Shown here: positions 55,139-60,996 of the stretch, piece by piece
How positions within the stretch are numbered: the stretch's first letter is position 1
Layout: each line of letters begins with the position of its first letter
Source of the DNA: Spirochaetes bacterium ADurb.BinA120
GTDB taxonomy: Bacteria; Spirochaetota; UBA4802; UBA5368
Assembly: GCA_002069125.1 (NCBI GenBank)
Contig: MVZN01000013.1
Coordinates: forward strand, 1 to 61,184
DNA length: 61,184 bases
Direction: 5' to 3'
Program-made: the position numbers and the translations under genes
The notes under the pieces: model-generated
Seen by the model: only the letters and a program-made list of their open reading frames with translations
Database searches by the model: none
Told to the model about the DNA's origin: nothing

Positions 55139-55211
55139 GGGCGCTTAGCTCAGCCGGGAGAGCATCTGCCTTACAAGCAGAGGGTCGCAGGTTCGATCCC
55201 TGCAGCGCCCA
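55139..55211 (+). tRNA. tRNA-Val (UAC)
   Basis: A 73-base cloverleaf: acceptor GGGCGCT/AGCGCCC plus discriminator A; anticodon stem TCTGC/GCAGA around CTTACAA, giving anticodon TAC; T arm GCAGG/CCTGC with TTCGATC. CCA is not encoded. An integrase gene starts 111 bases downstream, so its 3' end is the probable attachment site. Confidence 0.95.
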
Positions 55212-55321: not shown

Positions 55322-56503
55322 ATGAAGAAGCGAACAAAGGGATTTAATCTTTACCGTCGTGGCGACACCTGGTACTGCCGTGTATGGGATCAGGACGGTG
55401 GACGGTACACGTCGGCAAAATCCACCGGGGAGCAGGACCGCGACAGAGCATCAATGCGGGCCGCCGAAATGATCCGGAACGGCGAGTTTCGGCTCCATGA
55501 AGAGGATCCCCTATTCCACCAGCTTTATATTGAGTACTGGACGAACCGCAACGACCTTTCCCCGAAATACAAACGCGACGTTTTCAGGTTTTACGAAAAA
55601 TACCTGCGGGACGCGCCCGAACTACAATGCCGGACTTCCCGCCTCGCCGCCTATCAATTCAACCGACTGATCGACCGCCTCGAGCGGTCCGGCACCACCC
55701 CGCGAATGATGAACCGGGTTTTACAGAACGCGAAAACCTTCATTGCATGGGCGAAGCGCCGCGGGTACATCGCGCAAAACTTCAGCGATGAAATCGACCG
55801 CAAAAAAGAGGGGCTACAAGAACGAGGATTTTTTACACTTCAAGAAGTATTTTCGTTTGCCCGCGTGGAGTTTCCAGATATTCGCGTAAAATGCGCGGTG
55901 CTCCTGGGCTGCCTAGGAGGGTTACGACGCGGCGAAATCATGGCCTTAAGATGGGAGGACGTTGATTTTGAACAGGGTGTTATTCACATCAGGCGAAACT
56001 ATACCGGTGACCGCGACCATGCCGGGAACCCTGTTTTCCGTCAACCGAAGATGGGATCGACCGGGACAATTCCAGTACTCCACATCCCAGAATTGCGGCG
56101 AGTGCTCGCGGACGTGCTCGCTGAAACCCCATTTAAAGAACCGCGGCACCTGGTTTTACAGAACACCTGGGAGCGGCGGCGGTCGAACGCGGCCACATCC
56201 GACGGTGAAACACCCCTTAGTGACAGCACCCTAAAGCGTGGCTTCGCCGAAATCTGTATGGCCATCGGGATTTCACCCGACCAGATTCAAGAGCGGCGGC
56301 TCACGTTTCACAGCACACGACATGCGTTTATAACTCACATGAGCGCACACGCCCGCGCCGGGATCGTCCGGCAATTCTCAAGGCAATCATCCGAAAAGAT
56401 GGTTGAGCACTATCAGCACCGCGACGGCGAGGCGATGCTCGACGCCGTGGACAGCTTTAACCGCGGGCTCGACGTGTACCGGGAGCGGCCGGCCCTTAAC
56501 TGA
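55322..56503 (+). CDS. Tyrosine integrase
   Basis: Site-specific recombinase of 393 residues. N-terminal arm-binding region (about 5-55), core-binding SAM-like domain 60-165, catalytic domain with Arg in LGGLRRGEIMALRWEDVDF, Lys in the beta hairpin, HSTRHAFITHM with His and Arg, and the Tyr in MVEHYQHRD. The role is integration at, and excision from, the tRNA-Val 3' end. AAGGGG precedes the ATG. It is the first gene of the element. Confidence 0.9.
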   Translation: MKKRTKGFNLYRRGDTWYCRVWDQDGGRYTSAKSTGEQDRDRASMRAAEMIRNGEFRLHEEDPLFHQLYIEYWTNRNDLSPKYKRDVFRFYEKYLRDAPELQCRTSRLAAYQFNRLIDRLERSGTTPRMMNRVLQNAKTFIAWAKRRGYIAQNFSDEIDRKKEGLQERGFFTLQEVFSFARVEFPDIRVKCAVLLGCLGGLRRGEIMALRWEDVDFEQGVIHIRRNYTGDRDHAGNPVFRQPKMGSTGTIPVLHIPELRRVLADVLAETPFKEPRHLVLQNTWERRRSNAATSDGETPLSDSTLKRGFAEICMAIGISPDQIQERRLTFHSTRHAFITHMSAHARAGIVRQFSRQSSEKMVEHYQHRDGEAMLDAVDSFNRGLDVYRERPALN

Positions 56504-56545
56504 GCGTACACTCCCGGGGATAGCGCGACGGTGCGAAAAGCGGCG

Positions 56546-56573
56546 ATCCTGGCCGCCGGCCCCGGGATTTTTA
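56546..56573 (+). terminator. Candidate terminator after the integrase
   Basis: An imperfect GC-rich hairpin (ATCC-GGCC with GGCC-GGAT) followed by five T lies 43 bases after the integrase stop. Confidence 0.4.
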
Positions 56574-56605
56574 TAACAGGAACCCGTAAAAGGAGGCGGG
56601 GAAGG

Positions 56606-57388: not shown

Positions 57389-57415
57389 ACCGGTAAAGGA
57401 ATACCGCAAAAACAG

Positions 57416-57443
57416 AATCCGCGTAAATTACGCGGATTTTTTT
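57416..57443 (+). terminator. Rho-independent terminator
   Basis: A perfect nine-base-pair stem (AATCCGCGT with ACGCGGATT, loop aaatt) followed by five more T, 27 bases after the preceding stop codon. Confidence 0.85.
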
Positions 57444-57486
57444 ATTTCTACGCGAAAAATATTTGTGCGGGCGCGTAGAATACGCG
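57421..57486 (+). promoter_or_regulatory. Cluster of ACGCG motifs before the excisionase gene
   Basis: ACGCG or its complement occurs five times in 66 bases, including an inverted repeat CTACGCG (57448-57454)/CGCGTAG (57472-57478) around an AT-rich core and a final ACGCGG. Two copies are in the terminator stem; the rest could be operator sites for the HTH protein at 57553. Confidence 0.4.
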
Positions 57487-57552
57487 GACAAAAAGCGTGA
57501 GTCATGCGAAATTATGAGTGTTGTTAATCGCGAATCGTACGGGAGGCGTGAA

Positions 57553-57738
57553 ATGACTAGTCTTACAAATAACGAGCGACCGTGGCTCACGCCGAAAGAG
57601 GTTGCGGCGCTCACTGCGCAATCAGAGCCGACAATCCGGCGACAGTGCTATTCGGGAATTCTACCCTCGCGCAAATTCGGAAGGGCGCTTCGCATACCGC
57701 GCGCAGCGGTTGAACCGAAACGGAGCGGCGAGGCATAA
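57553..57738 (+). CDS. Excisionase-like HTH protein
   Basis: Protein of 61 residues with WLTPKEVAALTAQSEPTIRRQCYSGILPSRKFGRALRIPRAAV, the winged HTH_17/excisionase pattern (helix, helix, arginine-rich wing). It probably directs excision by the integrase or controls early element genes. GGGAGG precedes the ATG. It is the first gene of the replication operon. Confidence 0.82.
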   Translation: MTSLTNNERPWLTPKEVAALTAQSEPTIRRQCYSGILPSRKFGRALRIPRAAVEPKRSGEA

Positions 57739-57795: not shown

Positions 57796-58062
57796 ATGGA
57801 CAAATCAAAATTTAAGACGCTGAGCCGTCCGCGTCAAGTCAAAAACAGAATGCCGGAACAATATTTTGAGTTCTACCGGGGCGGACGTTTTTTCTACGCC
57901 GACCGGCGGGGGAATTTGAATTCAAACCCGGATAAATGGTTGCTCGACGACGGGCACATCAACGAGGTGTTCGTCGGTCGTGAGCTCGCAGAAATAGAGC
58001 ACGAAATTTTGAAATATTTTTACCCGAAAACCGCGGCGGCGCGTTCGAAGGTCCAGCGATGA
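57796..58062 (+). CDS. Small element protein, unknown
   Basis: Protein of 88 residues with a basic start and an aromatic core (YFEFYRGGRFFYADRRG). Not recognised. GAGGAG precedes the ATG. Its TGA overlaps the primase ATG (ATGA), so the two are translated together. Confidence 0.65.
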   Translation: MDKSKFKTLSRPRQVKNRMPEQYFEFYRGGRFFYADRRGNLNSNPDKWLLDDGHINEVFVGRELAEIEHEILKYFYPKTAAARSKVQR

Positions 58063-58808
58063 CCCCGTCTGATCTGATTTTCTCGCGCAGCGGCTACACT
58101 CTCCCGGCTCATCCCGACGGTCGCCCGCGGTGCAAGGACCTCGACGAAAACCGCATCCGATCCCGTGGCCAGCTCGCCGAGGCATACAGGCGCGGCACAC
58201 GTCGTTTCGTATTCCCGCCGACGTCGGCGCGGATGGTGGGTGTTGACCTCGATATGAAATCCGGCAAGGATGGAATCGCCGCTTATCGTGAAATCACCGG
58301 CATCGATCCGCGCGACGGGTTTCACACATCCACGCCGAGCGGCGGTGTGCACGTTTATTTTTTTACCGACGGAACGGATTATGTCTCGTGCGAAATCCGC
58401 CCGGGCGTTGAAATAAAATCGCGCGCATTTATTACCTTACCCGGCAGCCGTTCAGATCGTGGAGTGTACATCCCACACGGAGACCCCGCCGAAATTGGAG
58501 ACATTCCGGCCGCGCTCGCGGCGATCCTTCCGGTCCGGCGTACCGAGCCCGAACCCTTGCCGGCGAGGCCCGCAAATGCGGAGGTGCTCCCGCTCGCTCG
58601 TATTTTCGAGACCGTCGTTTCCCAGGGCACCGCGCCGCTCGCAGGCTCGCGGAATCAATTCATATTCTCGTTCGCTCGTTTCGCACGGCGCAAGGGACAC
58701 AATCTCGAATCCGTCGTGCACTACCTTTCGTCCTTCGCGAGTGCCGATTTTTCCACCCGGGAGATATGGTCCACCGTTCGGAGTGCGTGGCGCGGGGGCT
58801 CGCGATGA
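58059..58808 (+). CDS. Prim-Pol family primase/polymerase
   Basis: Protein of 249 residues with the archaeo-eukaryotic primase (Prim-Pol) domain: metal ligands Asp63/Asp65 in GVDLDMKSG, His98 in TPSGGVHVYFF, and EIKSRAFITLPGS for nucleotide binding. A C-terminal helical PriCT-like segment follows (NQFIFSFARFARRKG). Such domains prime and extend DNA for phages and plasmids. It overlaps the helicase gene (ATGA), so the replication module is split into two coupled proteins. Confidence 0.85.
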   Translation: MTPSDLIFSRSGYTLPAHPDGRPRCKDLDENRIRSRGQLAEAYRRGTRRFVFPPTSARMVGVDLDMKSGKDGIAAYREITGIDPRDGFHTSTPSGGVHVYFFTDGTDYVSCEIRPGVEIKSRAFITLPGSRSDRGVYIPHGDPAEIGDIPAALAAILPVRRTEPEPLPARPANAEVLPLARIFETVVSQGTAPLAGSRNQFIFSFARFARRKGHNLESVVHYLSSFASADFSTREIWSTVRSAWRGGSR

Positions 58809-60241
58809 TAGTTGAAATTAAGCGCGAAGCCGTCCCGACGCTACCTTCTGTTTCACGTGGCACAATTACTATGCCCGCGGACTGGACGTTTCGGCCCTCT
58901 GATCTGTCAAATTCGCAGATATTCGCGGCGCTCGCTCGCGGGCGCATCCTGTATGTGCCGGAACTTAAAAGCTGGATTAAATATGACGGCACTCGGTGGG
59001 TAAAGGATTCTCAGCGCGTGGCGGTCGAAAATATCTGTATCGAGGCAATACAGGCTGTTTATGCACTGAGCGCTGCCGCTGAAAATGAGCAGGCCCGCAA
59101 AACCTATGCCGCATGGGCCCTCCGTTCTGAGGACGAAAGCCGGCGGCGCGCGATGGTGGCCGGGGCCGAACGTGTGCAAGCGCTCATCAAGCCCCTTTCT
59201 CATTTTGACCGCGACATATATTTATACAATTGCGAAAACGGAACACTCAATCTTAAAACCGGCGATCTCCAACCGCATCGAGAGGACGATTATCTCATGC
59301 ACATCGGCGGGACTTATTACGATCCAAATGCAGAGTGTCCATTATGGATGGATACAATACAAAAGGCGTTCCGGGGCGATGCAGAAACCATCGAATTCTA
59401 TCAGCGATTTTCCGGGTACACCCTGACCGGGCATGTTATGGAAAAAGTAATTGCTTTTCTTTATGGGGCCCGGGGGGACAACGGAAAATCAACCATCACG
59501 AACGCCGAAGGTGAAATTCTCGGTGACTATCACATGAAAATGTCGGCCTCAACGCTTCTTGCAGGCAGCCGTCGCGATCCCGGGGGGCCGAGCGAAGACC
59601 TTGCACGCATCGCAGGCAAGCGGCGCATCACAGCCTCCGAGCTGCCGGAGGGCGCGCGATGGAATGATTCACTATTAAAAGACCTTTCCGGCGGCGATAG
59701 TATCAACGCGCGACACCTTCACGCCGAGTCGTTCGACTTCATCCCACAAGCGAAGCTCGTTATTTTCGGGAATCACAAGCCCGCCGTACGTGGCGGAGAT
59801 AATGCAGTTCGGAATCGAATACGAATGATTCCGTTCAACCACGTATTCAAGCCGAAAGATCGAGATATGCCAGAAAAGCTCCGCGCAGAGTATCCCGGAA
59901 TCCTTCGATGGATGGTTGAAGGCTGTATGAAATGGCAGTCCGCCGACAGCCTGGGAGAGCCCGGCACGGTCACAAGAGAAACGGACGCTTATTTTCTCGA
60001 AAACAACCCCTTGAAACAATTCATGGATGACCGGTTCGAGCTCTCTGAAAACGAGAAGGTGCCCTTCAAAAATGTGTACGAGGATTTTCGCGAATTCACC
60101 GGATCGACGAAGCTGTCAAAGGTCAAATTTTCGATGATAATGCAGGATCAATACCCCGTCCACGTCGCAGCGGGACACGGAAATGAGCGCTTTATTTATG
60201 GACTTCGGCCAAAAAATGACGCGCGGCGGGATTTATTATGA
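58805..60241 (+). CDS. D5/P4-type superfamily 3 replicative helicase
   Basis: Protein of 478 residues: an N-terminal D5_N-like domain (about 25-190), then an SF3 helicase with Walker A GARGDNGKST (Lys228), Walker B-like ITASELPEG, motif C in LVIFGNHKP, and an arginine-finger region RNRIRMIPF. It unwinds the element's origin and works with the Prim-Pol. The ATG at 58805 overlaps the primase stop. The large inverted repeat begins six bases after its stop. Confidence 0.88.
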   Translation: MIVEIKREAVPTLPSVSRGTITMPADWTFRPSDLSNSQIFAALARGRILYVPELKSWIKYDGTRWVKDSQRVAVENICIEAIQAVYALSAAAENEQARKTYAAWALRSEDESRRRAMVAGAERVQALIKPLSHFDRDIYLYNCENGTLNLKTGDLQPHREDDYLMHIGGTYYDPNAECPLWMDTIQKAFRGDAETIEFYQRFSGYTLTGHVMEKVIAFLYGARGDNGKSTITNAEGEILGDYHMKMSASTLLAGSRRDPGGPSEDLARIAGKRRITASELPEGARWNDSLLKDLSGGDSINARHLHAESFDFIPQAKLVIFGNHKPAVRGGDNAVRNRIRMIPFNHVFKPKDRDMPEKLRAEYPGILRWMVEGCMKWQSADSLGEPGTVTRETDAYFLENNPLKQFMDDRFELSENEKVPFKNVYEDFREFTGSTKLSKVKFSMIMQDQYPVHVAAGHGNERFIYGLRPKNDARRDLL

Positions 60242-60246
60242 AGAGC

Positions 60247-60356
60247 CGGGTTAACGGGTTAACCATGTTAACTGAAAATACCTGTTTTTTTAACTCACAG
60301 CTCTCGTGAAGAAAAACCAGGGGTTTCAGTTAACCACGTTAACCCGTTAACCCGGA
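60247..60356. repeat. Large inverted repeat of three plus three GTTAAC units
   Basis: Arms 60247-60278 and 60325-60356 match at 29 of 32 positions (18 identical pairs, three mismatches, 11 identical pairs). Each arm holds three GTTAAC (251-256, 259-264, 268-273 and 330-335, 339-344, 347-352, offsets from 60000), spaced eight to nine bases. Pairing extends inward through CCTG/CAGG and T5/A5, so nearly the whole 110 bases can fold as one hairpin. It fills the gap between the helicase stop and the next gene's ribosome site. Confidence 0.9.
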
Positions 60357-60372: not shown

Positions 60373-60747
60373 ATGGAAAAGTACATAATTATCACAACAC
60401 CCGATCCAGAGTACCGTAAATCGAACCGGTGGTTCGACCAGTGCGAACGAGAACACCGCCCATTCGTAAAAATCGTCAAGAAAACGCGATACTATGAGCT
60501 CCACTGGGATTATATCAGCCTGTGCGCGAAGGGCCGATTTGAGATGACAAAGGAAGGGCTCGAACAGTCTCACGCCTTCATGTGCAGGCATTGGCCACTC
60601 AAAAGGCCCTTTTGGTATTACGGACCGGTGGGATCGATCCCCAAACTTACCCTTGAACAAGCTCGAAAAGCGGCGGTCGAGATATACGACCTTCTCGCCT
60701 CGCAGCCCGTCTTCACATATCCCGGAGGGGGCGACAATGGACGCTAG
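60373..60747 (+). CDS. Element protein of unknown function
   Basis: Protein of 124 residues, aromatic and charged (MEKYIIITTPDPEYRKSNRWFD), with no recognised motif. A strong AAGGAGG site precedes the ATG, right after the inverted repeat. It overlaps the next small gene by 11 bases. Confidence 0.7.
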   Translation: MEKYIIITTPDPEYRKSNRWFDQCEREHRPFVKIVKKTRYYELHWDYISLCAKGRFEMTKEGLEQSHAFMCRHWPLKRPFWYYGPVGSIPKLTLEQARKAAVEIYDLLASQPVFTYPGGGDNGR

Positions 60748-60838
60748 AAAAGAATACGTTCTCTTGTGGCTCCGAATGGCGGACCTTTACGCACGGATGC
60801 GGCGGATGCGGAGGAATTACTGTGAAAGTGGTGCATAA
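60737..60838 (+). CDS. Small basic protein of 33 residues
   Basis: MDARKEYVLLWLRMADLYARMRRMRRNYCESGA: a short helical, Arg-rich peptide. GGAGG lies six to ten bases before the ATG, inside the previous gene's end. Its last codons and TAA form the first copy of the GGTGCATAA repeat. Not recognised; too short for a firm call. Confidence 0.5.
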   Translation: MDARKEYVLLWLRMADLYARMRRMRRNYCESGA

Positions 60839-60975
60839 GGTGCATAAGGTGCATAACTCACCCCTACGGGGAATTTTCACGAATGGGGGTATAAACCTTA
60901 TATATAGCAATATGTATAGAAAAGCAAAAAATACAGGGAGGGTCAACTGTGCACTTTATACACCTTATGCACCAC
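60828..60975. repeat. Inverted iteron cassette of GGTGCATAA units
   Basis: Three perfect tandem copies of GGTGCATAA (60830-60838, 60839-60847, 60848-60856) face inverted copies at 60965-60973 (perfect), 60956-60964 (one change) and 60947-60955 (6 of 9). The arms enclose about 90 bases: a CCCC/GGGG hairpin near 60861-60871 and an AT-rich core with TATATATA near 60900. The layout is that of the first cassette with a different motif. Confidence 0.85.
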
Positions 60976-60996
60976 TCAAAGCAATGGAGGCATGAT

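Follow-up and report, generated by a model that had tools for sequence, protein, structure and literature searches.

A putative replication origin of inverted GTTAAC iterons directly 3' of a D5-type helicase gene in an integrated spirochaete element, and its counterparts at other D5 helicase loci

The window analysed here, one entire contig of 61184 bases, contains an inverted repeat with six GTTAAC iterons (IR1) directly behind a gene for a D5-type helicase. On the evidence of sequence comparison, IR1 is very probably the replication origin of the element that carries it, which the adjoining helicase would bind and which would melt at the spacer between the repeat arms. IR1 itself is most likely a new example of the origin type known from SaPIs, PICIs and plasmid pRN1, and thus ordinary in kind. 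The more interesting result is the wider comparison of D5 loci, which shows a sharp peak of strong inverted repeats at the stop codon of the helicase gene.

Table 1 Coordinates of the element's features in the window.
Feature	Positions	Strand	Basis or remark
tRNA-Val (tac), likely attachment site	55139..55211	+	3' part found again on contig 84
Tyrosine integrase	55322..56503	+	Domain search
int-alpA RNA	56513..56580	+	Rfam RF02996, 51.8 bits, gathering 35.8
HTH_17 / excisionase-family protein, AlpA-like position	57463..57738	+	Family profile searches
Prim-Pol primase with PriCT_1, gene overlapping the helicase gene	58059..58808	+	Pfam PF09250, PF08708
D5-type (SF3) helicase, P4-family primase C-terminal	58766..60241	+	Pfam D5_N, PHROG 1156, TIGR01613
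IR1, 110-bp putative replication origin with GTTAAC iterons in inverted clusters	60246..60355	.	Score 23, six GTTAAC, genome-unique
Left iteron arm of IR1	60246..60277	.	GTTAAC at 60250, 60258, 60267
IR1 spacer, candidate melting region	60278..60323	.	59% A+T, inward T7 / A5 tracts
Right iteron arm of IR1	60324..60355	.	GTTAAC at 60329, 60338, 60346
124-aa ORF after IR1, without confident family	60373..60747	+	ORF list, family searches
IR2, another inverted array with an AT-rich core and GGTGCATAA x3	60827..60976	.	Repeat scan

The DNA around IR1 is best read as an integrated element at a tRNA-Val gene (Table 1); as the window spans an entire contig, the element is cut by the contig end. On contig 84, part of the tRNA-Val gene (its 3' part) recurred twice (763-811 at 96% and 2491-2532 at 93%), and no complete tRNA gene was found there, which suggests that they mark the right end of the element and an older insertion. 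The two copies bracket 1.7 kb (763-2532, L317) with HicA-like and HicB-like genes, the HicA-like match being below the Pfam cut-off; this stretch is perhaps a remnant of the older insertion. Two palindromes, CGCGTAAATTACGCG and CGCGTAGAATACGCG, were observed at the 5' end of the HTH_17 gene, ahead of its start and inside it (57408-57488), and are possible autoregulatory sites. For the 124-aa ORF that follows IR1, an Arm-DNA-bind_3 identity was rejected, the hint being under its Pfam cut-off.

The two arms of IR1 are complementary at 29 of 32 positions, and inner pairing stretches them to 60246-60289 and 60312-60355 (44 nt, 82%). The near-perfect repeat with six GTTAAC sites and the inward continuation of its pairing, both described in an earlier note on this DNA, were thus confirmed, whereas the coordinates given there (60247-60356) proved to be one base off and the distance from the helicase stop codon, given as six bases, is 4. 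The description of the repeat as ending just before the next ribosome site also held: IR1 is followed by GGAGG and by the ATG at 60373, with 17 bases before the start codon. Only 8 copies of GTTAAC occur in the 61-kb window, six of them inside IR1 with three in each arm, and when the window was simulated 200 times with a first-order Markov model, the count in any 110-bp stretch never exceeded 2. The inverted-repeat score compares with a maximum of 10 among 10 dinucleotide shuffles, and the RNA fold of IR1 had an energy of -59.1 kcal/mol (z = -9.8). The DNA just downstream is 48% A+T, against 59% in the spacer. A sequence search revealed no second copy elsewhere in the 3.5-Mb genome; the repeat is therefore not one that is scattered through the host chromosome, which the earlier note had named as evidence for an ordinary repeat.

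A long inverted repeat within a mobile element could also be a site of recombination or resolution. This element, however, has its likely attachment site at tRNA-Val, and no recombinase gene was recognised beside IR1 among the ORFs or by domain search, which leaves such a role hardly credible.

A single-sequence search of the genome_contigs set gave no relative, and relatives were then found with an alignment as the query. The helicase was absent from all four same-genus genomes examined, so that the comparison draws on more distant relatives. Within the same order, the nearest relative that was found is a D5 prophage (L005, in genome G025), whose helicase is 37-39% identical and in which a repeat lies at the same place, where the earlier note had considered that close relatives might have none. 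Its six sites start at -5, 3, 12, 75, 84, and 92 from the D5 stop, as against 8, 16, 25, 87, 96, and 104 in the window, so that the successive spacings are 8, 9, 63, 9, and 8 there and 8, 9, 62, 9, and 8 here, with a difference of one central base. Two of the six sites in the prophage are one base off GTTAAC, and the bases between the sites diverge between the two loci. A prophage with the same six-site origin (L319, G025 contig 82) has an integrase, the D5 helicase, the origin, and the small and large terminase subunits. What the G025 prophage has in common with the window is thus the arrangement of six GTTAAC sites at the D5 stop; it differs in that terminase genes are seen after the origin and in its diverged spacer sequences.

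The closeness of IR1 to the start codon at 60373 would also suit an operator, in which the GTTAAC palindromes bind a regulator of that gene. Among the matches listed, 114 of the 120 fetched viral loci with GTTAAC arrays had no D5 gene, so some such arrays may be operators. In the relative L005, however, the layout tracks the helicase stop while the next gene is a different one. Moreover, only one promoter-like match touches IR1, with 9/12 on the minus strand, and the region held 4 promoter-like matches against a shuffle mean of 2.7, which is no clear excess. We consider an operator at IR1 improbable.

Comparing GTTAAC cassettes with D5 genes, a check proposed in the earlier note, did not make the motif itself a mark of D5 origins: GTTAAC triples were rejected as such a marker, a D5 gene being present in only 6 of the 120 viral loci among the matches listed. 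None of these six listed D5-bearing loci had its array at the D5 stop; the arrays were 1.0-2.7 kb from the D5 gene. The sequence GGTGCATAAGGTGCATAA was also tried and rejected; it had two viral matches, one of them inside an ORF within a run of similar repeats and neither with a recognisable D5 gene. Long GTTAAC arrays with a 12-bp period were also observed on several viral contigs (L032, L088, L036, and others) whose fetched locus was without a D5 gene.

The survey of D5 helicases comprised 172 loci: 80 from the viral_contigs set, 80 from the genome_contigs set, 8 annotated phages or plasmids, the loci L005, L006, and L008, and the window; L008 and L206 are one viral contig. At each locus, the best ungapped inverted repeat was sought in the 600 bases past the D5 stop, and a score of at least 14 was called strong. 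Nine loci without a stop in the stretch or with fewer than 250 bases after it were dropped, leaving 163 of the 172. Within 600 bp 3' of the stop, strong inverted repeats were found in 70 of these 163 loci; the corresponding counts were 1 of 170 for the gene interior and 1 of 145 for +1500 to +2100. The downstream repeat exceeded all ten shuffles in 92 of the 163. After removal of redundancy, 44 of 114 loci at 90% and 34 of 81 at 70% retained a strong repeat. The other 70 of the 114 were under the threshold; gapped inverted repeats may exist in some sub-threshold loci, and L006 appears to be such a case.

The location of these repeats was resolved with 500-bp tiles across 119 non-redundant loci. 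The tile starting at -200 from the stop gave the peak (54 of 113), its neighbours gave 26 of 117 (start -400) and 43 of 109 (start 0), and tiles elsewhere around the D5 genes gave 0 to 4 of 90-119 loci. Among the 44 strong non-redundant cases, direct repeats inside an arm were present in 37, where shuffling predicted 7.7, and the period was 8, 9, or 10 in 32 of these 37. The median span was 104.5 bp, the spacer was richer in A+T than the downstream DNA in 37 of 42 cases, and of the 44, 31 had T-tracts directed inward and 6 had them directed outward. With its span of 110 bp, its period of 8-9 and its inward T7 and A5 tracts, IR1 is typical of the repeats at D5 stops. The literature searched, which consisted of open-licence papers, yielded no survey in which iterons are compared across D5 helicases.

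IR1 was then compared with known origins. In the account of PICI replication in PMC6092414, the origin comes directly 3' of the rep gene and has an AT-rich region between two sets of iterons; the gene order of Gram-negative PICIs is given there as int, alpA, primase, rep, and ori. IR1 likewise lies immediately 3' of an initiator helicase gene and has two iteron sets flanking an A+T-richer spacer, and the helicase is likewise of the D5/Rep type with a predicted C-terminal DNA-binding domain. The element, read only to the contig end at 61184, shows the same succession of int, an alpA-like gene, primase, helicase, and origin at an att site. It differs from SaPIs and PICIs in that the iteron is GTTAAC and the primase and helicase are on separate genes. 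PICIs also lack structural genes of phages and depend on a helper; the present element may be such a satellite or may be a prophage, as is its relative with the same layout, which has terminase genes. In Lactobacillus phage A2, the annotated rep_origin is at or overlapping the D5 primase stop, the same position as that of IR1, and contains inverted ACGGGAGGAT repeats; unlike IR1, it has another iteron and a TA-rich core. The SCCmec Cch2 origin also involves a D5-type helicase whose C-terminal domain binds downstream direct repeats, but according to PMC7581432 it has three direct AAGTG iterons, and inverted repeats are dispensable for binding.

An archaeal counterpart is the origin of the Sulfolobus plasmid pRN1, a dyad of 100 bp that lies 3' of the plasmid's Prim-Pol/SF3 gene. 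The authors of PMC4234260 regard it as a stem-loop without iterons and argue that the integrity of the stem matters. IR1 is likewise a dyad of about 100 bp 3' of Prim-Pol/SF3 genes with an inward T-tract. In our analysis, each 21-nt arm of pRN1 (L359, 5030-5250) contained TGTCCA twice with a 9-bp period (32 of 2000 shuffled arms were as good), and the arms of pHEN7 (L361) contained TGTCAC twice with the same period (129 of 2000). The arm repeats of pRN2 were weak (449 of 2000), and no 9-bp-period repeats were shown by the arms of pDL10 and pSSVx. Two of the five pRN-family plasmids compared, pRN1 and pHEN7, therefore likely have iterons, as judged from their arm sequences. pRN1 differs from IR1 in being archaeal, in having two repeats per arm in place of three, and in its fused primase.

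These comparisons bear on whether IR1 might work as a folded hairpin or cruciform, whether as a terminator, an attenuator, or an origin recognised by its structure as proposed for pRN1. Its fold is very stable, and for pRN1 the authors argue that an intact stem is important (PMC4234260). Nevertheless, while the iterons are kept, the bases between them differ from one arm to the other, here as well as in L005. As a terminator, IR1 would lack the T-run past the stem, the flanking sequence being GAAAAAGGAGG on the plus strand and CTCTTCATAATAA on the minus strand, and scans for terminators and promoters around IR1 gave nothing clearly above shuffles. Direct repeats in the arms of loci of the IR1 type and of pRN1 favour iterons over recognition of a stem-loop. 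The cruciform-like fold, which the earlier note thought could equally be a regulator or recombination site, is accordingly disfavoured as an alternative, because most arms in such origins (37 of 44) consist of direct repeats, and we regard action through a folded structure as very improbable.

The helicase that would read the iterons matched TIGR01613 with 252.8 bits (cut-off 108.7). Its structure model had a pLDDT of 89.3, and a C-terminal domain at about residues 415-482 is predicted to have a helix and strand pattern that fits a winged helix. Residues 32-486 of the model could be superposed on the SaPI5 primase-helicase (7ola) with a Z of 29.5 and an rmsd of 4.6 over 391 aligned residues, a match that covers the predicted C-terminal domain; other solved D5-type viral primase-helicases matched as closely. 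The isolated C-terminal domain of Cch2 binds the iteron region downstream, according to PMC7581432. A partial Mantel test was applied to the 51 non-redundant D5 loci whose repeat scored 13 or more and exceeded every shuffle. Iteron similarity correlated with the C-terminal domain when the ATPase core was controlled for (r = 0.23, reached by 0 of 2000 permutations), but not with the core given the C-terminal domain (r = -0.02, 1442 of 2000). For pairs whose cores are less than 60% identical, the correlation was gone (r = 0.02), indicating that the signal derives from close relatives. Iteron similarity thus tracks the helicase C-terminal domain and not the ATPase core, in close relatives only.

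A second inverted array, IR2, starts 585 nt past the helicase stop. Its left side consists of three tandem 9-mers, its right side of partly changed copies, and its 76-nt core contains TATATATA and is 66% A+T, richer than the spacer of IR1. The consensus of the DnaA box is TTATNCACA. Five IR2 copies are TTATGCACC or TTATACACC, each with one mismatch to this box, always at the last base. In addition, GTGCATA repeat arrays on viral contigs include dense DnaA-box-like arrays; on four similar contigs (L320, L326, L344, and L351), these comprise TTATCCACA and TTATGCACA in both orientations. IR2 could on these grounds be the true origin, or a site for the host DnaA, with IR1 as an auxiliary or regulatory helicase site. 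Set against this, repeats with a score of at least 15 that start at least 280 nt past the stop occurred in only 6 of 119 non-redundant D5 loci, IR2 scoring highest, and among the 172 D5 loci, the window alone had a cluster of four GTGCAT or TGCATAA between -200 and +1500. The final base of every IR2 copy is C, whereas the host boxes near dnaA include TTATCCACA and TTATCAACA. The doubled 18-mer of IR2, with at most one mismatch, was found in one of 46 genomes of the order, namely this one. A search of the genomes of six relatives with IR2 DNA gave short matches only, the best being 20 bases on G025 contig 26, where no D5 gene was among the ORFs listed for the first 4 kb. We consider it unlikely that IR2 takes the place of IR1 as the origin.

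The reading of IR1 as an origin, put forward in the earlier note, gained support from its position, from the six-site layout in the relative, and from the D5-wide comparison, and we infer binding, melting, a bidirectional start, and use in vivo on this basis. The winged-helix-like C-terminal domain of the D5 helicase would bind the three GTTAAC iterons of each arm, and the inverted arms would seat one helicase ring on either side of the A+T-richer spacer with its inward T-tracts. The duplex would then melt at the spacer, both rings would move apart, and the neighbouring Prim-Pol would prime synthesis at IR1.

A broader proposal, which we put forward tentatively and with more doubt than confidence, is that bacterial and archaeal D5-type origins, pRN1 included, share one design, and that the present element may fire from a composite origin. 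The comparison suggests that this design would consist of inverted iteron clusters with a period of 8-10 bp and inward T-tracts directly 3' of the gene, the iteron sequence being read by the C-terminal domain of the helicase. In the composite origin, the element's own helicase may act at IR1 together with the host DnaA at the DnaA-box-like IR2. Should this rule hold, sequence alone would often reveal the origin and the initiator site of phages, satellites, and plasmids with D5 helicases, and many natural pairs of helicase and iteron would allow the specificity of that C-terminal domain to be studied. The stem-loop origins of archaea would then be joined to the iteron origins of bacteria in one mechanism.
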